Origin: Chloroflexota bacterium
Lineage (GTDB): Bacteria > Chloroflexota > UBA11872
Assembly: GCA_026707285.1 (NCBI GenBank)
Contig: JAPOXD010000053.1
Span: 1-64,000, forward strand
Reading direction: 5' to 3'
Length of the DNA: 64,000 bases
How positions within the stretch are numbered: the first letter of the stretch is position 1; the number at the start of each line of letters is the position of its first letter. A model generated the notes under the pieces. It was not told the DNA's origin and did not search any database. It saw only the letters and a list, made by a program, of their open reading frames with translations. The translations under genes were made by a program, and so were the position numbers. Shown here piece by piece: positions 16,832-57,626 of the stretch.

Positions 16832-18520
16832 ATGAGCAGCCTCACCGGCGCCGTGTGGGACATTCGCCGCCGCGCGCCGAAGGAGCTGTTTGCGCGGCTG
16901 GAGGACGTGCCGGCGCTCGCGGTGCAGCTGCTGCACAACCGGGGCTACGCCGACGAGGCGGCGATTCGGGAGTTCTTGGACGGCCCGTTGCCGCCGCACG
17001 ATCCCTACCTCTTGGACGGCATGGACGCGGCGGTGGCCCGCGTGACGCAGGCGCTCGCGCAGGGAGAGCGCGTCTACGTGTATGGCGACTACGACGTCGA
17101 CGGCGTCACCGGCACCGCGCTGCTGCTGGAAACCTTCGAAATGCTCGGCGCGGCGGCCACGCCCTACATCCCGGAGCGGCTGGCCGAGGGCTACGGCCTC
17201 AACCACGACGCGATCGACGCGATCGGCGCGCAGGGTCCCGGACTCATGGTGACGGTGGACTGCGGGATCGGCAGCGCCGACGAGATTGCGCGCGCGCGGT
17301 CGCACGGGATCGACACCATCGTCACCGACCACCACCCGGGCGACGGCGCCGATAACGGCGCGGCGGCGGTGCTGAATCCCAATCAACCAGGCGGCGCGTA
17401 TCCGTTTCCCGGGCTTTCCGGTGTGGGCGTGGCGTACAAGCTGGTGCAGGCGCTGGCGGAAGAGATGCCGGAGCGGCTGCCGTATCCCGAAGAGTTTCTC
17501 GATCTCGTGGCCCTGGGGACCGTGGCGGACATGGCGCCGCTGCGGGACGAAAACCGCACGTTCGTGGCCGAGGGTCTCGAAGCGCTGCGACAAACCCGGC
17601 GCCGCGGGCTGCACGCGCTCGGCGAGATCGCCCGACGCCCCGTCTCACGCGTGGGCGCAGCGGACATCGCCTTCGGCTACGCACCGCGGCTCAATGCCGC
17701 CGGGCGCCTGGCGCGCGCCGATCTGGCGCTGCAGTTGCTTCGAGCCGGCCATTCGGTCGAGGCCGAGTCGCTGGCGCACGAGCTCGACAATCTCAACATC
17801 GAGCGCCGCCGACTGACCCAACTGGTGATCGACGCGGCGGCGGCGCAGATCGACTCGGCGGAGCCGCTGGTCTTCGCGATCGGCGACGAGTTTCCGCTGG
17901 GCGTCGTCGGGTTGGCCGCCGGCCGCCTGGTGGAACAGACGGGGCTGCCCGCGTTCGTGGGGGCGCACGTGAACGGAATGGTGCGCGGATCGGCGCGGGC
18001 GCCGGACGGCGTGGTGCTCGCCGAGGTCCTGGGAACGCAGGCGAATCTGCTCGACGCCTGGGGCGGGCATGCTCAGGCGGCGGGGTTCTCCGTGCGGCCC
18101 GAGCGCGTGGATGCGCTGCGCGACGGTCTGGTTCAGGAGCTGGAGCGAGCGGGCGTCCAGGCGCCGGCGGAGCCGCGATTGGACGCTGACTGCCGCGTCT
18201 ACCCGCGAACCGTGACCTGGGAGACCTATGAGTTGACCCAGCAGCTGGGACCGTTCGGCGAGGCGCATGCCGAACCGCGCTTCGTGGTGGAAAATGTGGC
18301 CATCGACGAAACCCGGGTCGTGGGCTCGACGCATCTCGTGCTGCGCTTTGCGGAGCTGGGCGCGGATGTGGAGGGCATCTGGTTCGGACAGGCGGATCTG
18401 CGCCACGAGATTCCGCCGGGCCGGCGCTGCGACGTGGCGTTCCGTCTGAACCTGCGAACGTTCAACGACGAGACGCGGCTGCAAATGCTCATCGACGACA
18501 TCCGCCACTCGGCGGCCTAG
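16832..18520 (+). CDS. recJ: Single-stranded-DNA exonuclease RecJ
   Basis: RecJ degrades single-stranded DNA 5'-3' in recombination and mismatch or base-excision repair. The DHH domain shows YVYGDYDVDGVTGTA and the VTDHHPGDG motif that gives the family its name. Later come NAAGRLARADLAL and the DHHA1 glycine motif GGHAQAAGFSV, then an OB-like C-terminal domain. The length of about 562 aa is standard. ATG 16832 is preferred to an in-frame GTG at 16811. The next gene, the (p)ppGpp synthetase, follows after 12 bp, so the two probably form an operon; recJ-relA adjacency is seen in several bacteria. Confidence 0.93.
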   Translation: MSSLTGAVWDIRRRAPKELFARLEDVPALAVQLLHNRGYADEAAIREFLDGPLPPHDPYLLDGMDAAVARVTQALAQGERVYVYGDYDVDGVTGTALLLETFEMLGAAATPYIPERLAEGYGLNHDAIDAIGAQGPGLMVTVDCGIGSADEIARARSHGIDTIVTDHHPGDGADNGAAAVLNPNQPGGAYPFPGLSGVGVAYKLVQALAEEMPERLPYPEEFLDLVALGTVADMAPLRDENRTFVAEGLEALRQTRRRGLHALGEIARRPVSRVGAADIAFGYAPRLNAAGRLARADLALQLLRAGHSVEAESLAHELDNLNIERRRLTQLVIDAAAAQIDSAEPLVFAIGDEFPLGVVGLAAGRLVEQTGLPAFVGAHVNGMVRGSARAPDGVVLAEVLGTQANLLDAWGGHAQAAGFSVRPERVDALRDGLVQELERAGVQAPAEPRLDADCRVYPRTVTWETYELTQQLGPFGEAHAEPRFVVENVAIDETRVVGSTHLVLRFAELGADVEGIWFGQADLRHEIPPGRRCDVAFRLNLRTFNDETRLQMLIDDIRHSAA

Positions 18521-18532
18521 CGGAGGCGTCGG

Positions 18533-20929
18533 ATGCCAGTTTCAGTGACGGCCACGCTGGCGCCGATGGTGAGCGCGGACACGCCCGCGCTGGCCATCGA
18601 CGAGCTGCTGGAGCGGGTCGCCGCCTACACGCCCGCCGACGATCAGCCCGAGGCCGGCGAGCTCATCCGCCGCGCCTACGCCGCCGCCGAGCGGGCGCAC
18701 GCGCCGCAGAAACGGCTATCCGGCGAGCCCTACATCCAGCACGTGCTGGCGGTGGCCATGCTGGTGGCCGATCTTCACCTCGACGCGGACACGGTTGCGG
18801 CAGGTCTGCTGCACGACGCGGTCGAGGACACCAGCCTGAGCCTGGACGTGATCCGGCGGCAGTTCGGGAGCGGGGTGGCCGAACTGGTCGATGGGGTGAC
18901 CAAGCTGGAGCGCGTCACCGTGGCGAGCCTGGACGAACAGCAGGCGCAAAACCTGCGCAAGGTGCTGCTGGCCATGGCGCGCGACGTGCGCGTGGTGCTG
19001 ATCAAGCTCGCCGACCGGCTGCACAACGTGCGCACCGCCTGGGTGTATTCGGCCGAGAAGCGCGCCCGGTATGGGGAGGAAACACTCGAGATTTTCGCGC
19101 CCCTGGCCGGGCGCCTGGGCATCGAGGAATGGCGCTGGCAGTTGGAGGACTACGCGCTCAAGCTGCTGGACCCCGATCGCTACCGCGACCTGGCCCGCTG
19201 GCTGCTGGCCGAGCGGCGCGCGCGCGAGGCCGCCATCGCCGAGGTTCAGGAGCAACTGCGCCACGGCCTGGACGACGCCGGAATCGACGCCCACATCCAG
19301 AGCCGGGTCAAGCACATTTACAGCATCGAGCGAAAGATCCGGCGCAAGGGCGCCGACCGCGAGTCGATCTACGACATTCTGGCGATCCGCGTGATCGTGA
19401 ACTCCCAGCAGGACTGCTATGGCGCGCTGGGCGTGGTGCACGGGGCCTGGCGCCATATCCCGGTCGAGTTCGACGACTACATCTCGGCGCCCAAGGAAAA
19501 CGGCTACCAGTCGCTGCATACCGCCGTGCTGGGGCCCGACGGCAAGCCGGTCGAAGTGCAGATCCGCACCCGCGAGATGCACCAAAACGCGGAGTACGGC
19601 GTGGCGGCGCACTGGCGCTACAAGGAGGGCGGCCCGCTTGGGCCCGAGGCCTTCTTGGACAAGCTGGCCTGGATCCGGCAGATCCTGAGCTGGCAGGAGG
19701 ACGGCGACTCGGCGGGGGCATTCGTGGACGCCGTCAAGACCGACTTCTTCAGCGACACCGTGTTCGTGTTCACGCCGAAGGGCGAGGTCAAGGACTTTCC
19801 CATCGGCAGCACGCCGCTGGACTTCGCCTATCGCATCCATAGCGACGTGGGCCACTCCTGCATCGGGGCCAAGGTGAACCGCCGCCTGGTACCGCTGGAC
19901 CACGAGCTGGAAAACGGCGACGTGGTGGAGATTCTGACCAGCACCAGCAGCAAGGGGCCGAGCCGGGCGTGGCTGTCGCAGGTGCGCACGGCGCATGCCC
20001 GCGACAAGATTCGCCGCTGGTTCAAGCGGCACGAAAAGGCCGAGAACGTCGTCTCGGGCCGCGCGCTGCTCGACCGGGAGCTGCGGCGCGTGGGCCAGGG
20101 CGGGGTCGCGAACGTGCCGGACGCCGACCTGAAGGCGATCGCCACCTCGCTGGGCTACTTGGACGTCGAGAGCCTGCTGGCCGGCGTCGGCTACGGCGCC
20201 ACCACGGTGCACCAGGTCGTGACACGGCTGCGGCTCACCCCGGAGGTGGCGGAGCCGGAGCTGCCGGAAACGCTGGAGCCGGACGAGCGGCGCGAGGTGC
20301 AGCCGTTGGTCAACGTGCTGGGCGCGGGCAATCTGCTCACGCGCGTGGCGGCCTGCTGCCATCCGCTGCCGGGGGACGACATCGTGGGCTTCATCACCCG
20401 CGGCCACGGGGTCAGCATCCACCGCCGCAACTGCGCCAACGTGCGCAACGTGTCAGAGCCCGAGCGCCTCGTGCCCGTGTCCTGGGCCGACCGGCTGGTC
20501 GAGACGGATACCGACCTGCCCGTCCGACTGGCGAGTTGCTGCACGCCGAGGCTCGGCCGACGCATCGAAGGCGTGGCCAAGAACGGCGCGGTGGAGGTGC
20601 ACCGGCGCACTTGCCGCGAGCTGGCCGGCGAGACCGACCCCCGCGTGCCGGTGCGCTGGATCGAGGACGACACGCAAAGCCTGCCGGTCAGCATCCGCGT
20701 GGTGGCGCACGACCGCGAAGGGCTGACGCACGACATCACCGGCATCATCCGGGAAGAGGGACTCAACATTGCCACCATGTCGGTGCGCACCAACCGGCGG
20801 CACGAGGCCACCTTCCGGCTCACCGTGGCGCTGCGCAGCGTGGCCCAGCTGGCCCGGCTGCTGCGGCGCATCGAGACCGTCCGCGGCGTGGTCGCGGTCT
20901 CGCGCGAAGGTGCGCGGGCGCGGCAATAG
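18533..20929 (+). CDS. relA: (p)ppGpp synthetase/hydrolase with doubled zinc module
   Basis: This 798-aa RelA/SpoT homologue makes and breaks the alarmone (p)ppGpp. The hydrolase HD site is intact (His70, His94-Asp95 in LLHDAVEDT). The synthetase has Asp280 (YDILAIR), the KENGYQSLHT loop and Glu340 in EVQIRT, so it is probably bifunctional. A TGS domain (about 405-465) and a C-terminal ACT domain follow. Unusually, the CC/zinc-finger module occurs twice: Cys608-Cys609-His630-Cys634 and Cys669-Cys670-His690-Cys694, offset by about 60 residues. GGAGG at 18522-18526 lies 6 nt before ATG 18533. Confidence 0.93.
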   Translation: MPVSVTATLAPMVSADTPALAIDELLERVAAYTPADDQPEAGELIRRAYAAAERAHAPQKRLSGEPYIQHVLAVAMLVADLHLDADTVAAGLLHDAVEDTSLSLDVIRRQFGSGVAELVDGVTKLERVTVASLDEQQAQNLRKVLLAMARDVRVVLIKLADRLHNVRTAWVYSAEKRARYGEETLEIFAPLAGRLGIEEWRWQLEDYALKLLDPDRYRDLARWLLAERRAREAAIAEVQEQLRHGLDDAGIDAHIQSRVKHIYSIERKIRRKGADRESIYDILAIRVIVNSQQDCYGALGVVHGAWRHIPVEFDDYISAPKENGYQSLHTAVLGPDGKPVEVQIRTREMHQNAEYGVAAHWRYKEGGPLGPEAFLDKLAWIRQILSWQEDGDSAGAFVDAVKTDFFSDTVFVFTPKGEVKDFPIGSTPLDFAYRIHSDVGHSCIGAKVNRRLVPLDHELENGDVVEILTSTSSKGPSRAWLSQVRTAHARDKIRRWFKRHEKAENVVSGRALLDRELRRVGQGGVANVPDADLKAIATSLGYLDVESLLAGVGYGATTVHQVVTRLRLTPEVAEPELPETLEPDERREVQPLVNVLGAGNLLTRVAACCHPLPGDDIVGFITRGHGVSIHRRNCANVRNVSEPERLVPVSWADRLVETDTDLPVRLASCCTPRLGRRIEGVAKNGAVEVHRRTCRELAGETDPRVPVRWIEDDTQSLPVSIRVVAHDREGLTHDITGIIREEGLNIATMSVRTNRRHEATFRLTVALRSVAQLARLLRRIETVRGVVAVSREGARARQ

Positions 20930-42908: not shown

Positions 42909-45239
42909 ATGTCCACGTCGCGGCGATCCCCCTTCCCCTATGACTGCGTGCTGCATGGGACGGGCCTGATGCTGGACGACGACGGCGGCCTGGCCTGGCG
43001 CGAGCGACGCCTCGAGTCGCTGCCGCCGCCGATCTCGGGGCCGGCCCGGGCCTACGCCCAGTTTCCCTCCGAGCATGAGGCCGCCTGGACCACCGGCGAC
43101 CTGACGGGCGGCTACGGCGCGAGCACGTCAACGGCGGAGGGCGGACGGCAGTACGCCCACGGCTTCGTGGACGCGCGCTTTCCCAATCAGATCATGTTGC
43201 CACCGGCCCTCACCGAGAGCCGCGTCGGCGGGGACGGCACGGTGCGCGGCCACTTCGAGTTGGGCGGCGTGCTGTACGCGCTGATCGGCTCGGCCGTCTA
43301 CCAATCAACCGACGGCGCCCGCTGGACGCTGGCGCACCAGTTTGGCGACGGCGACACGCCGGTTTCGGCGGCTGTCTTCCAGGGCGCGGCGGCGGCGCCT
43401 CACGCGTTCGTCGCGGTCGGCGGCGGGCCCGGTGACGGTCCCTATTGGACGTTCGACGGCAAGGCGTGGACGCCCCATCCGGGAGTGCAGGCGAAGCCGA
43501 CCGCCGTGCTTGCGACGACCGACGGCGGCGTGACCTACACCGATCAGACGGAGTCGGCCGAGGTTCGCCTGAGCGGCTCGGCCGCGGGCGGCGCCTGGCT
43601 GCTCCTGGGATCCGACGCACCGTTCGACAGCGTGCGACTGGACCCGCGCGAGCGAATCAACCGGGGCGCCGCAACGCTCACGGCCGAGTTTTGGACGGGC
43701 GCTGCGTGGGAGCCTGTCAGTGACTGGGTCGACCGGACGATCGTCGAGTCCGCCACGCTGGGGCGCGCCGGCGCGGGTGAGTTCACGGAGCCCGTCACGT
43801 GGCGTCCTTCACTCATCGAGGACATCCAAGCCTTCTGGCTGCGCCTGTCGGCGACCGCGCCACTGGACTCCAGGGTCCGGCTGCACGGCATTGCCGTGCA
43901 CCAGCCCCGCAAGGCCGACCGGTTCCTCGTGGTCGGAGATGAACTGTTGCGCTCGTCGTCGGAATCAGGCGTCCCCCGGATTTCGCGCTCGGTGGACGGC
44001 GGCGACGACGCGGCGTGGACGTCTGGCGAGCCGGTCGGCGGCCCGGGTCACGCCGTGACGGCGCTGGTGTCACTGGGCGACATGCCTTACGCGGTCACGA
44101 CCGACGGGCTGTATCGCATTCGACCATCCGGTGAGGCGGCGTTCGAGGCGTCGTGGCCACGTCCGGCGGCACTGCGCGATCGGAGTGACGGCCGGGGAGG
44201 CGCGGTGTGGCGCGGGGCGTGGTGGCTGCCATCGAAGGAGGGGCTCTATCGCTTCGCGCCGGGCGCGTTCGAGCTGGTGGGGCCCGAGACGCTGCCGGAC
44301 AACGACTCGGCGGTTCGCGGCCGCATCACCGCCTGCGCGGGCGACGCCTTTTTCTTGTACGCCGCCCTCCGCAGCGACCAGGGCGTCACCTATCTGCTGT
44401 GCTACGACGCGGAGCGCGGCGCCTGGCATCCCCTGGCCGACCTTGGCCGACGCGAATGCCGCCATATGTGGGTCTCGGACGTTCCTGGGCCAAACCCGCG
44501 GCTGTACCTCGGGCTGGACGACGACATTGGCGCGATCATCCTGCCGCGGCACACCGCCAATCCCTTGCACGACCCGCGGTGCCGCTTTGCCCCGTCGGGC
44601 GAGCTGCGGCTGTCGCGCTTCCACGGCAGCCCCGCCGCCCGACGCACCGCGTTTCTCGGGCTGAACATCGACGGCGCACGGCTGGGGCCAGACGCCTTTG
44701 TCGACGCCGCCTACCGGCTGGATGGGCACGGGGCTTATGCGCCGCTCGGTCGCTTCGCCACCGCCTCGGGCCAGCGGGTCGACTTCGGTTCGGCGGTGGC
44801 CGGCACTTCGATCGATCTGCGCCTGCGGCTCACGACACACAGCGACCGCGCCACGCCGGTGATCCGGGCCGTCACGCTGGCCTACGCGGCGCGCACCGGC
44901 TTCCGGCGCGTCTTTGACTTCCGCGTGCGGCTTGCCGACCGGCTCTCGCTGCGAGACGGAGGCCGGGACCGGCGGGCGGCGCGCGACATCAAGCGGGCGC
45001 TCATGGCGGCGGCGGCCTCGGAGCTGCCTGTGGTGCTCACCACCCCGGACGGCGAGGCGCTGGAAGTGCTGGTGCGCGAGGCCGAGGTCCGCGCGACGGG
45101 CCGGCCGCTCGCATGGGCCATGCACATCTCCGCCACGGAGTACCGGCCGACCGCTGCCCATGGCCGGCATCGCCGCCTCGCGACCTATCGCCATGACCAC
45201 CTGGCGGCCTATACGCACCGCCAGATCAGCCAGCTCTAA
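42909..45239 (+). CDS. Large phage tail protein, tail-tube-B-like
   Basis: This 776-aa protein is beta-rich, with propeller-like repeats (YALIGSAVYQSTDGARW, PYAVTTDGLYRIRPSGEA, WLPSKEGLYRFAPGAFE). Size and position match the nozzle/tail tubular protein B of podoviruses (about 800 aa), which also folds as a propeller with inserted domains. The late section DFRVRLADRLSLRDGGRDRR and the Tyr/His-rich end could contact the fibre. ATG 42909 is immediately adjacent to the previous stop. Confidence 0.55.
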   Translation: MSTSRRSPFPYDCVLHGTGLMLDDDGGLAWRERRLESLPPPISGPARAYAQFPSEHEAAWTTGDLTGGYGASTSTAEGGRQYAHGFVDARFPNQIMLPPALTESRVGGDGTVRGHFELGGVLYALIGSAVYQSTDGARWTLAHQFGDGDTPVSAAVFQGAAAAPHAFVAVGGGPGDGPYWTFDGKAWTPHPGVQAKPTAVLATTDGGVTYTDQTESAEVRLSGSAAGGAWLLLGSDAPFDSVRLDPRERINRGAATLTAEFWTGAAWEPVSDWVDRTIVESATLGRAGAGEFTEPVTWRPSLIEDIQAFWLRLSATAPLDSRVRLHGIAVHQPRKADRFLVVGDELLRSSSESGVPRISRSVDGGDDAAWTSGEPVGGPGHAVTALVSLGDMPYAVTTDGLYRIRPSGEAAFEASWPRPAALRDRSDGRGGAVWRGAWWLPSKEGLYRFAPGAFELVGPETLPDNDSAVRGRITACAGDAFFLYAALRSDQGVTYLLCYDAERGAWHPLADLGRRECRHMWVSDVPGPNPRLYLGLDDDIGAIILPRHTANPLHDPRCRFAPSGELRLSRFHGSPAARRTAFLGLNIDGARLGPDAFVDAAYRLDGHGAYAPLGRFATASGQRVDFGSAVAGTSIDLRLRLTTHSDRATPVIRAVTLAYAARTGFRRVFDFRVRLADRLSLRDGGRDRRAARDIKRALMAAAASELPVVLTTPDGEALEVLVREAEVRATGRPLAWAMHISATEYRPTAAHGRHRRLATYRHDHLAAYTHRQISQL

Positions 45240-52719: not shown

Positions 52720-54195
52720 ATGTCTTTTGAGTCTCGACCGACCCGGTCACGTCGTCCCCGCCGTTCCGGCGGCCATCCGGCCGTCTGCGCTGACTGCGAG
52801 ACGTCAACCACCGTCCCATTCCGACCACGGCCGGACCGTCCCGTGTACTGTCCACCGTGCTTCACGGCCCGGCGCAACGGTTCTTCCGCCGCGCCAAGGG
52901 CGCGTGACTCGGAGCCGCGCCCAACGAGCGATCGAGCAATTGCCGACGCTCCCGATGTCTCGGCAGCCTTTCCCGAGATCGACCTGAGTGCGGCCAGCCG
53001 AGCTGCCCTCTCGCGCATGGGCATCTCGGCGCCCACACCCATTCAGGAAAAAACCATCCCGCAGTTCCTCGCGGGGCATGACTTGATCGGGCAGGCCCGC
53101 ACCGGGTCCGGGAAAACCCTGGCGTTCGCGGTGCCTCTTGCCGAACGCTGCGACCCGTCGGACCGCCGCGTCCAAGCCCTCGTGCTCGTGCCCACGCGCG
53201 AGCTGGCCATCCAGGTGGCCGGCGTCGTTGATTCCCTGGCCTCGCCACAGGGGCTGCGCGTCACATTGCTTTACGGCGGCCGGTCGTTCCGGCCGGAATC
53301 CACGGCATTGAAACGCGGCGCCCAGATCATCATTGGCACGCCAGGCCGCACGCTTGACCACCTCCGGCAGGGCACGCTCGATCTGCGTGGCGTGCGCGTC
53401 ATGGTCTTGGACGAGGCGGATGAAATGCTGGATATGGGGTTCGCCCGTGACGTCGAGGCCATCCTCAGCCGGACGCCCGCCAGCCGCCAGACCGTGCTCT
53501 TTTCGGCGACGATGCCAGGGTGGGTGGCGAAGACTGCCGCCAAGCACCTGCGCAACCCGGTGACGGTGCAGGTGGACGCAAACGTGAATGCGCCGCCCAC
53601 CGTCGAGCACCTGATCTACTCCATAAAACGACACGACAAGCTCGGCGCGCTCCGGACCCTGCTCGATGATCGAAAAGATGCGCCGGTCATCGTTTTCGGA
53701 CGGACCAAGCACGGTGTGAAAAAGCTGGCCAAACAGCTCGCGGCGTTGGGCTATCCCGCCGGCGCGCTGCAAGGCAATCTCAGCCAACGCGCACGCGAGC
53801 GCATGATGGCGGAGTTCCGGTCTGGGACCACGCCGGTGCTGGTGGCGACCAACGTTGCTGCCCGAGGGTTGGACATCCAGGGTATCGAGCAGGTCATCAA
53901 CTATGACTTGCCCGACTCCGACAAGCTCTTCACCCACAGGGTCGGCCGAACCGGTCGCATGGGCAGTTCCGGCGAGGCCGTGACCTTCGTCACACCAGAT
54001 GAGGAAAAGAAGTGGCGGGAGATTGTGCGCGGACTCGGCCGCCGCTTTATCCGAAAGCCGTGGAAGGGGGGCCAAGCAAACGCGCAAGGCCCGGATCAGT
54101 CGCCTCGGCAGCCGCAGCGGACCTCCCGCCGCCGCGGAATGCCACGCCACCGCCCGGAATTTTCCGCCCCCAACGCTTCAGCCATCTCCAGCTAG
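52720..54195 (+). CDS. DEAD-box RNA helicase with N-terminal zinc ribbon
   Basis: This 491-aa ATP-dependent RNA helicase probably unwinds rRNA or mRNA structures. All core motifs are intact: ISAPTPIQ (Q motif), ARTGSGKT, PTRELAIQ, GTPGRTLDHL, DEADEMLD, SAT, RGLDIQGIEQVINYD and HRVGRTGRMG. Before the core, a CxxC...CxxC zinc ribbon (Cys23, Cys26, Cys44, Cys47; TTVPFRPRPDRPVYC) is fused, which is unusual for this family. The Arg/Gln-rich tail is likely an RNA-binding extension. ATG 52720 has only a weak ribosome site; the leader of about 150 bp may be regulatory. Confidence 0.9.
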   Translation: MSFESRPTRSRRPRRSGGHPAVCADCETSTTVPFRPRPDRPVYCPPCFTARRNGSSAAPRARDSEPRPTSDRAIADAPDVSAAFPEIDLSAASRAALSRMGISAPTPIQEKTIPQFLAGHDLIGQARTGSGKTLAFAVPLAERCDPSDRRVQALVLVPTRELAIQVAGVVDSLASPQGLRVTLLYGGRSFRPESTALKRGAQIIIGTPGRTLDHLRQGTLDLRGVRVMVLDEADEMLDMGFARDVEAILSRTPASRQTVLFSATMPGWVAKTAAKHLRNPVTVQVDANVNAPPTVEHLIYSIKRHDKLGALRTLLDDRKDAPVIVFGRTKHGVKKLAKQLAALGYPAGALQGNLSQRARERMMAEFRSGTTPVLVATNVAARGLDIQGIEQVINYDLPDSDKLFTHRVGRTGRMGSSGEAVTFVTPDEEKKWREIVRGLGRRFIRKPWKGGQANAQGPDQSPRQPQRTSRRRGMPRHRPEFSAPNASAISS

Positions 54196-55270: not shown

Positions 55271-56089
55271 TTACGGCGCCCCGTCCTCGCCCAGCACGAA
55301 CCGTTCGATGGCTAGCGCCGCCCCGTCGTCCTCGTAGGTCCCGGTGACCCAATCGGCGGCGGCGCGCACGCGCGGATCGCCGTCACCCATGGCCACGCCG
55401 ATACCCGCCGCCGTGACGAGATCGAGGTCGTTGAGGTTGTCGCCGATCGCCATGGTCGCCTCGGGTGAAATACCGAGTGCCCGCGCGAGCAAATGGAGCG
55501 CCTCGCCCTTGCTCACGTCCTGCCCAATCGCCTCCGCGAAGCGCGGATGGGAGCGGGTGATGTCCAGCACGGATCGGAAGCGCTCGTCGAGTTCGCTCAC
55601 GATCGCCGGCACGTCGGCCTCGTCGGCCACGACGACCAGCTTGGTCGTGCCGCGGTGCACGGCGGCCGCGAGATCGGGGATCAGGCGGATCGGCACGTCG
55701 GAGGTCTCGGCGTAAAAGCGGCCCTCGGGCGTGGCCGCCTCCATGTAGAGCTCGTCATTCACGTAGGCGTTGATGTGCCAGCGGCGCGCCTTGGCGTACG
55801 CCACGACGTCCAGTCCGGGTTGGACCGGCAGCACGCTCGAGTGCAGGGTCTCGCCGCTCACGGGGTCGCGCACCAGCGCGCCCTGGTAGCAGATGATCGG
55901 CGCGGTGACGTGCAAGTCGCGGGCGAACCGCCGCGCCGAGCGAAACATGCGCCCGGTGGCGATGGTGACGGCCACGTCCTGCGCCTGGGCGCGCCGAATG
56001 GCCGTCCGCACCCGCGGCGTGACGCCCTGCTCGCCGCTGACGATGGTGCCGTCGAGATCTAGGGCCAGCAGCCGGATCGCGGAGTTCAT
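55271..56089 (-). CDS. HAD-superfamily Cof-type phosphatase
   Basis: This 272-aa protein belongs to the HAD hydrolases of Cof subfamily IIB, which dephosphorylate small metabolites. Motif I is LALDLDGTIVSG, motif II is VTIATGRMF, the lysine lies in DVSKGEALHLLA, and motif IV is AIGDNLNDLDLV. The cap domain sits between motifs II and III. ATG 56089 gives the standard N-terminus; upstream frame is open but lacks similarity. It is divergent from yvcK. Confidence 0.9.
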   Translation of the reverse strand: MNSAIRLLALDLDGTIVSGEQGVTPRVRTAIRRAQAQDVAVTIATGRMFRSARRFARDLHVTAPIICYQGALVRDPVSGETLHSSVLPVQPGLDVVAYAKARRWHINAYVNDELYMEAATPEGRFYAETSDVPIRLIPDLAAAVHRGTTKLVVVADEADVPAIVSELDERFRSVLDITRSHPRFAEAIGQDVSKGEALHLLARALGISPEATMAIGDNLNDLDLVTAAGIGVAMGDGDPRVRAAADWVTGTYEDDGAALAIERFVLGEDGAP

Positions 56090-56184
56090 CGGGTTGTCGG
56101 AATTGGACGCGCGCATGCCATGCAGCCTACCCCCAGGTCGCTGTCGATCGGCGCCACATCGCCGGCTCAGCTGTCGCCGCGGAT

Positions 56185-56216
56185 TTGATAACCGCGCCAC
56201 AGGCGCTGCGTATAAT
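56185..56216 (+). promoter_or_regulatory. Predicted promoter of yvcK
   Basis: -35 TTGATA (56185-56190) and a perfect -10 TATAAT (56211-56216) are separated by 20 bp, slightly long. This is the best consensus -10 seen in the window and lies about 90 bp before the YvcK start. Confidence 0.45.
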
Positions 56217-56306
56217 TGGTCTCTGGGTCACCCGGTACTCCGCGCCGCCGAGTCCCAGCGTCGCGACGACGGCGGGCTCGTTCGTTGGCAGGAGGCTCGA
56301 CCGCGC

Positions 56307-57626
56307 ATGCGCTCACGACGTTGGTTAACCCTCGGCATAGGCGTCAAGCGCTACATCCTCCTCATCTTCGCGGGCACGGTCATCCTGGCGCTGGCGCTGG
56401 CCATGTTTCTGGCCTACGTCTACCGCACCATCGACGTGCCGGGGCCGGCCGGCTCGGTGGTCTACTACATGACCCTGCAGTTCATCGAGCATCCCTTCCG
56501 CTCGCTGGTGGTCGGCGGGCTGGGGCTGGCGGGGGTCGTCGCCGGCGGATTCCTGCTGGGGCGCACGGTGCTTTCGGTGGTCGTGAGCCCCGACGACAAC
56601 ATTGCCGAGACGCTCTACCAGAGCCGTCGGCTGCAGCGCGGTCCGCGCGTCGTGGCCATCGGCGGCGGCACCGGGCTCGGCATCCTGCTGCGAGGGCTCA
56701 AGGAGCACACCAACAACATCACCGCCGTGGTGACGGTGGCCGACGACGGCGGCAGCTCGGGGCGGCTGCGCGAGGAGTTTGGCCTGGCGCCGCCGGGCGA
56801 TGTGCGCCAGTGCCTGGCCGCGCTGGCCGATTCCGAGTCGCTGATGAACGAGGTGATGAACTATCGCTTCAGCCGCGGCGGCGGACTCCAGGGGCACAGC
56901 CTGGGCAATCTGCTCATCGCCGCGACCACCGAGCTCAAGGACGGCAATTTCGAGCAGGGCGTGCGCGCGCTCAGTGACGTGCTGCGGGTGCGCGGGCGCA
57001 TCCTGCCCTCCACGCACTCCGACATCCGGCTGGTGGGCGAGCTGGCCGACGGGCGAATCGTCCGCGGCGAGTCCAAGCTGCGGTCGTCGGGCCAGCCCAT
57101 CTCGCGCGTATTCATTGAGCCGCGGCACGTGGCGGCCAATTCGGCGGCCATTCAGGAGATTCTGGCGGCGGACATGGTAGTGCTGGGTCCGGGAAGCGTC
57201 TTCACCAGCGTGATTCCCAACCTGCTGGTGGGCCGGCTGACCACCGCGATCCGCGCCTCGCGCGCCGTCAAGGTCTATGTGTGCAACGTGGCCACCGAGC
57301 TTGGGGAGACGGACGACTTTGGACCCGCCGAGCACGTCTACTGCTGCACGCGGCACGTCGGGCCCGATCTCTTCCAATACATGCTGGGCAACAGCAACAC
57401 CCAGGTTGAGCTGCCCGAGGGCAGCGGCACCCGGCTGGTCACCTGCGATCCGGCCACGCAGGTGGAGCTGCTGGACGCGGGCGTGCAGGCGGTGCTGGCC
57501 GACGTGGTGGACCCGGCGGCGCCGCATCACCACGAGCCGCACGCGCTGGCGGCGGCGCTGATTGACCTCTACGAGCAGGCCTCGCAGAACAAGGCCACGC
57601 TGGTCGCGCTGGCGGAGACGCGCTAG
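56307..57626 (+). CDS. YvcK/CofD-like regulator with N-terminal membrane anchor
   Basis: This 439-aa protein belongs to the YvcK (gluconeogenesis factor) family, which binds UDP-GlcNAc and balances carbon flow and cell-wall synthesis. Two hydrophobic segments (about 13-38 and 58-85) anchor it, unlike the soluble Bacillus protein. The nucleotide-sugar domain has AIGGGTGLGILLRGL, TVADDGGSSGRLR, GHSLGNLLIA and VLGPGSVFTSVIPNLLV. ATG 56307 follows GGAGG. The last 4 bp overlap the convergent polyprenyl synthase gene. Confidence 0.88.
   Translation: MRSRRWLTLGIGVKRYILLIFAGTVILALALAMFLAYVYRTIDVPGPAGSVVYYMTLQFIEHPFRSLVVGGLGLAGVVAGGFLLGRTVLSVVVSPDDNIAETLYQSRRLQRGPRVVAIGGGTGLGILLRGLKEHTNNITAVVTVADDGGSSGRLREEFGLAPPGDVRQCLAALADSESLMNEVMNYRFSRGGGLQGHSLGNLLIAATTELKDGNFEQGVRALSDVLRVRGRILPSTHSDIRLVGELADGRIVRGESKLRSSGQPISRVFIEPRHVAANSAAIQEILAADMVVLGPGSVFTSVIPNLLVGRLTTAIRASRAVKVYVCNVATELGETDDFGPAEHVYCCTRHVGPDLFQYMLGNSNTQVELPEGSGTRLVTCDPATQVELLDAGVQAVLADVVDPAAPHHHEPHALAAALIDLYEQASQNKATLVALAETR

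Follow-up and report, generated by a model that had tools for sequence, protein, structure and literature searches.

Rel proteins, the long RelA/SpoT homologues (RSH), are near-universal regulators with a very stable domain order. In the long-RSH architecture of Atkinson (2011), six domains are present, including one zinc-finger domain (CC/ZFD) (PMC3153485). Long RSHs switch between a closed form, associated with hydrolysis, and an open form, associated with synthesis (PMC13376610). In Escherichia coli RelA, the ZFD helix formed by residues 638–647 docks on the A-site finger of the ribosome, while the sheet of the domain packs on S19 (PMC4974054). The A-site finger is required for RelA recruitment (PMC5829649), and C612/C613 and R629 of the E. 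coli protein, like C602/C603 and R619 of the Bacillus subtilis one, matter for ribosome-dependent activation (PMC7058999).

The window analyzed here, i.e., the whole 64,000-nucleotide stretch of Chloroflexota DNA, encodes a Rel protein in which two ZFDs, rather than one, precede the C-terminal ACT domain.

The rel gene and its domain architecture

The rel gene has an unbroken reading frame with no stops, and its product is the only long RelA/SpoT homologue found by a search of the genome. The 798-aa protein scores 759.8 bits with the TIGR00691 profile, the curated cut-off of which is 499.2, and therefore belongs to this family. The HD, synthetase, TGS and ACT domains and the helical part of RelA_AH_RIS were all matched by Pfam. 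The gene and its domains are as follows:

18533..20929, + strand: rel, long RelA/SpoT homologue, 798 aa (TIGR00691 profile match)
18674..19123, + strand: HD (ppGpp hydrolase) domain, residues 48–197 (Pfam)
19301..19630, + strand: RelA_SpoT synthetase domain, residues 257–366 (Pfam)
19760..19939, + strand: TGS domain, residues 410–469 (Pfam)
19982..20230, + strand: helical domain (matched part of RelA_AH_RIS), residues 484–566 (Pfam)
20321..20497, + strand: ZFD1, canonical zinc-finger/CC/RIS domain, residues ~597–655, ligands C608, C609, H630 and C634
20498..20671, + strand: ZFD2, second, diverged copy before ACT, residues ~656–713, ligands C669, C670, H690 and C694
20672..20911, + strand: ACT/RRM domain, residues ~714–793 (Pfam ACT_4 at 715–791, model)

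The HD motif HDAVED (residues 94–99) is intact, and both the HD and the synthetase domain are present. The synthetase motif reads EFDD (residues 312–315; 19466–19477), the HD motif being nonetheless intact. The form xFDD was also found in the other matched Chloroflexota and RFKD in the matched Bacillota and Geobacter, some rows of this comparison giving no match. RFKD is the mark of bifunctional enzymes and EFDD that of monofunctional ones.

Upstream of rel lies recJ, with DHH and RecJ_OB domains, the stop of which at 18520 leaves a gap of 12 bases, and an aldo/keto reductase gene is located downstream. Elsewhere in the window, a DEAD-box helicase of 491 aa (52720–54195) carries an N-terminal match to a “probable treble clef zinc finger” (PF23477). 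A CofD-family protein of 577 residues (55893–57626) has its CofD domain from residue 253, the N-terminal 250 residues giving no Pfam match at 1e-8, and an open frame of 776 residues (42909–45239) likewise has no Pfam match at this threshold.

Homology of the two zinc-finger modules

The first-pass annotation had placed two tandem CC modules before the ACT domain, with the Cys/His positions listed above, and its residue numbering proved exact; the coordinates it gave, 20351–20620, span both modules, and the strings it quoted, HPLPGDD in the first copy and TPRLGRR in the second, are correct. Rel thus has two ZFDs where the standard architecture has exactly one. That this is a real, diverged tandem duplication is confirmed by the residues themselves, by BLASTP and by profile searches. 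In a single BLASTP comparison, ZFD1 and ZFD2 share 20 of 54 residues (37%) with an E-value of 8e-10. When 87 single-module ZFDs were combined into a profile, both modules were matched in all 34 two-module proteins, with E-values of about 1e-25 to 1e-31 for module 1 and domain E-values of 5.6e-12 to 2.6e-6 for module 2, and in the reverse search a module-2 profile matches single ZFDs at 5e-17. The significance of the matches in both directions indicates homology rather than chance likeness. Tandem Repeats Finder detected no DNA-level array at the module spacing, implying that the duplication is old, and together with the profile and BLASTP matches this rules out a chance or repeat artefact. Both modules can be read in all 29 two-module loci of the class (L001–L029) and in five Chloroflexi MAG contigs, which excludes an assembly artefact or a single-genome oddity.

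The annotation had also raised the possibility that only one of the modules folds; both are, however, predicted to do so. In a full-length AlphaFold2 model of Rel (34-row alignment; mean pLDDT 78, pTM 0.46), the two modules have the same strand order and a short helix; with a pTM of just 0.46, the way the model places ZFD2 against its neighbors ZFD1 and ACT carries little weight. ZFD2 modeled alone (16-row alignment) reached a pLDDT of 82, and the top six solved structures aligned to this model by VIA-align are all RSH ZFDs: SpoT 7qpr (Z 7.8), Rel 6htq (7.0), RelA 5iqr (6.6), and 5kpv, 5kps and Mycobacterium smegmatis Rsh 8fr8 (6.0 each). The next row is unrelated, with a Z of 2.7. Foldseek gave weak E-values (best 0.041) because the domain is so small, yet its nine top rows are all RSH proteins. 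The models thus predict the ZFD fold for ZFD2.

Distribution and origin of the two-module Rel

Rel C-termini were read in all 41 genomes of a sample of the class, which covers 13 genera and five families (f1–f5). Two modules are present in 29 of them, comprising all 19 genomes of f1, the window's own family, four of the five of f2, and all six of f4. The remaining 12 have one module: all nine genomes of f3, both of f5 and one genome of f2 (G019). A pattern scan of the class matched 30 genomes, two of these matches (G019 and G040) being out-of-frame chance hits, and missed one (G006). The two-module Rel is thus not peculiar to the genome of the window, being fixed in f1 and present in most of the larger clade.

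Across the phylum, 301 genomes were searched with a two-module profile and counted by the best E-value per genome. In 27, all of this class, it was 1e-53 or better, in 270 it was 3.6e-30 or weaker, and four gave no match; of the 264 sampled genomes that belong to other classes, none scored in the upper group (≤1e-53). Counted over the phylum, the insert is therefore clade-specific (29 of 41 genomes within the class, 0 of 264 elsewhere). A scan of named genomes, in which 542 relatives were confirmed and 80 loci kept, yielded 75 one-module and five two-module loci, the latter all from MAGs named “Chloroflexi bacterium.” The second module could have been a common feature of RSH proteins at this site, a condition under which the first-pass annotation would have lost its novelty, but these counts clearly speak otherwise. 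Outside the phylum, the searches covered samples of two further phyla and are blind to duplications with a different spacing or a very diverged copy. Within this scope, no two-module Rel was found among 79 genomes of the phylum of Geotalea (76 matched, none above 90.1 bits), and a pattern search of 199 genomes of the phylum of Bacillus inaquosorum gave no matches; in a control, this pattern finds 31 of 34 known two-module proteins and none of 87 single-module ones.

The origin of the trait was examined in a tree of 60 RSH sequences trimmed to the core, with the C-terminal modules removed; it was obtained from an earlier 62-row tree by removing two long-branched outgroup rows. The 29 two-module proteins group with the single-module protein of G019 in a single clade (bootstrap 99, SH-aLRT 93). 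Two changes are needed on this tree, and the simplest account is that the module was gained once and lost once, the latter in G019, where the duplicate was lost from a rel gene that has no visible damage. In a tree of the modules, a branch with an SH-aLRT of 86 separates all 28 distinct module-2 sequences from the rest, the deep branching order of this 56-column alignment being too weak to read. These trees indicate a single duplication of the ZFD, which took place in the common ancestor of three families belonging to one Chloroflexota class.

Conservation and selection in the two copies

Among nine diverse two-module proteins, 20 columns are invariant in module 1 and eight in module 2. Each of the latter (C, C, I, G, H, C, V, and W) is also among the invariant columns of module 1, and they remain the sole invariants when 16 module-2 sequences from the three families are aligned. 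The Cys-Cys/His/Cys pattern is kept in all 16, and these four positions are the presumed ligands of a predicted zinc site. ZFD2 has neither the PGD motif nor the TRGRG loop of ribosome-binding ZFDs, the loop being one residue shorter, and it also lacks the Asn after the last Cys. It thus appears to keep the zinc-binding and folding residues and little else.

Such a pattern, with invariance confined to the presumed ligands and four residues of the core and the rest free to vary, would be expected where the metal counts, for instance if ZFD2 were a zinc or redox sensor whose metal-site loss or oxidation reshapes it and biases Rel toward synthesis or hydrolysis. However, any structural zinc finger keeps its ligands, and no regulator or metal gene is tied to the trait, making this function quite improbable.

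ZFD1, aligned to E. coli RelA, is close to canonical. The equivalents of C612, C613, P617, G618, H634 and C638 are present in all 29 two-module proteins, and the PGD motif is exact in 28 and PGE in one. The position of R629 is occupied by His in 19 and by Arg in ten. The His belongs to the GHG loop form of family f1; in other proteins the residue is mostly Arg. In the window, this residue is H625 (20405–20407), at the position of E. coli R629 and B. subtilis R619, close to the A-site finger. In the ACT domain, the equivalents of D675, R676, G678 and R740 are present in 29/29. The position of R670 holds Arg in 15 and Leu in 12 of the 29, and that of R739 holds Arg in four of the 29 and in one of the 12 single-module proteins of the class. 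Overall, ZFD1 and ACT retain the majority of the known ribosome-contacting residues.

Pooled Nei-Gojobori dN/dS values, calculated in three groups of 6, 7, and 6 genomes, were 0.278, 0.219, and 0.135 for ZFD2 versus 0.059, 0.094, and 0.022 for ZFD1, and in every group ZFD2 was the fastest-evolving of the six regions tested. These ratios indicate that ZFD2 is constrained by purifying selection despite its faster evolution. ZFD2 might still be a near-neutral leftover of the old duplication, folded and out of the way, as its rank among the six regions and its clean loss in G019 would suggest. Against this, its dN/dS stays at 0.14–0.28, its ligands are invariant over three families, and the module is kept in 29 of the 30 members of the clade, so that we regard a leftover as improbable.

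Ribosome contacts and the A-site finger

According to the first-pass annotation, this region senses the state of the ribosome and tRNA. This statement can be refined: the ZFD serves mainly to anchor the protein to the ribosome, on the A-site finger and S19, and within the C-terminal half it is TGS that touches the tRNA 3′ end (PMC4974054, PMC7058999).

The A-site finger, helix H38 of 23S rRNA, was compared with that of E. coli at 12 loci of 11 class genomes (eight with two modules and three with one; one genome, G030, has two copies), the search for 23S rRNA having given no match in two of 13 genomes. In this set, H38 is not enlarged and does not divide the genomes by module number, so that a co-evolved A-site finger was rejected. 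The 23S rRNA of one of the genomes (G029, L126) spans about 3790 bases, versus about 3085 in its relatives, probably because of an intervening sequence or intron, and the 23S match of G019 (L130) is likewise broken into pieces.

Among the two-module proteins, the net charge of ZFD2 varies, with extremes of −6 and +5, making the module ill-suited to a conserved contact with rRNA. It is basic in genus g2, where 12 of 13 loci have a charge between +2 and +5, the exception being L019 with −4. This basic character and a predicted fold shared with ribosome-binding ZFDs could mean that ZFD2 provides Rel with another anchor to the ribosome or to RNA, such that one ZFD binds the A-site finger and S19 and the other a neighboring rRNA or protein surface, with increased affinity; it might then offset the missing R629 equivalent in ZFD1 of f1. 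We consider a second anchor unlikely: ZFD2 has lost PGD, GRG and the conserved post-Cys Asn, its charge is unconserved, its evolution is fast, and H38 carries no matching change.

Proposed role of ZFD2

The reading we prefer, with a probability of roughly 0.55, is that ZFD1 remains the ribosome anchor, while ZFD2 acts as a zinc-folded regulatory spacer between this anchor and ACT, tuning anchoring and the closed/open switch. ZFD1 would still dock on the A-site finger and S19, and ZFD2 would be a zinc-stabilized module devoid of those contacts. Since it is inserted between two domains that both touch the A-site finger in known structures, ZFD2 must either be looped out or alter the geometry of ZFD and ACT. 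It may thereby set the spacing, flexibility or contacts of ACT relative to ZFD1, and in this way tune how Rel is anchored and how it changes from the closed, hydrolyzing form to the open, synthesizing one and back; a protein partner is possibly involved. The His found at the R629 position in 19 of 29 proteins makes ZFD1 an imperfect canonical anchor in family f1, to which the window belongs. Several points speak against this reading, namely the Leu at R670 in 12 of 29 proteins, the Arg at R739 in only four of 29 (although single-module proteins of the class mostly lack this Arg as well), and the loss of ZFD2 in G019 without visible damage to the gene. Alternatively, ZFD2 could be a separate input of Rel that senses metal, redox state or a protein partner and, from its place between the ribosome anchor and ACT, acts as a gate on the switching of Rel by starved ribosomes; this proposal is tentative, and we see it as possible rather than likely.

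The two-module Rel poses the question of how rigid the ZFD–ACT unit must be. One copy of the ZFD is canonical and the other is reduced to the predicted metal site and core, which makes the protein a natural experiment parting the structural from the ribosome-binding roles of the domain. The starvation alarm may be tuned differently in this group of Chloroflexota.

Comparison with known RSH enzymes

No long RSH with two ZFDs was found in the literature searched, as far as titles and the beginnings of abstracts indicate. Rare domain losses are given in the survey of RSH proteins, and a ZFD gain is absent from the portion of that text consulted (PMC3153485). In the two-ZFD Rel, a domain of a well-known enzyme has thus truly been duplicated, and the duplication has become fixed in a clade and is under constraint.

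Bifunctional long RSHs such as B. subtilis Rel agree with Rel of the window in their six domains and the order of these, with an intact HD motif and a synthetase domain, and differ from it in lacking the extra ZFD of 61–62 residues before ACT. The synthetase motif, xFDD as in other matched Chloroflexota, also sets Rel of the window apart from RFKD-type Rel. ZFD2 resembles the ZFDs of RelA, Rel and SpoT (5iqr, 6htq, 7qpr) in its predicted fold, in having all four Cys/His ligands and at the core positions I, G, V, and W, but does not share PGD, the GRG loop with its A-site-finger arginine (one residue shorter in ZFD2) or the post-Cys Asn. The closest relatives by RSH core are the single-module Rel proteins of the same class (f3, f5, and G019), in which, unlike in the two-module Rel, the ZFD is followed directly by ACT.
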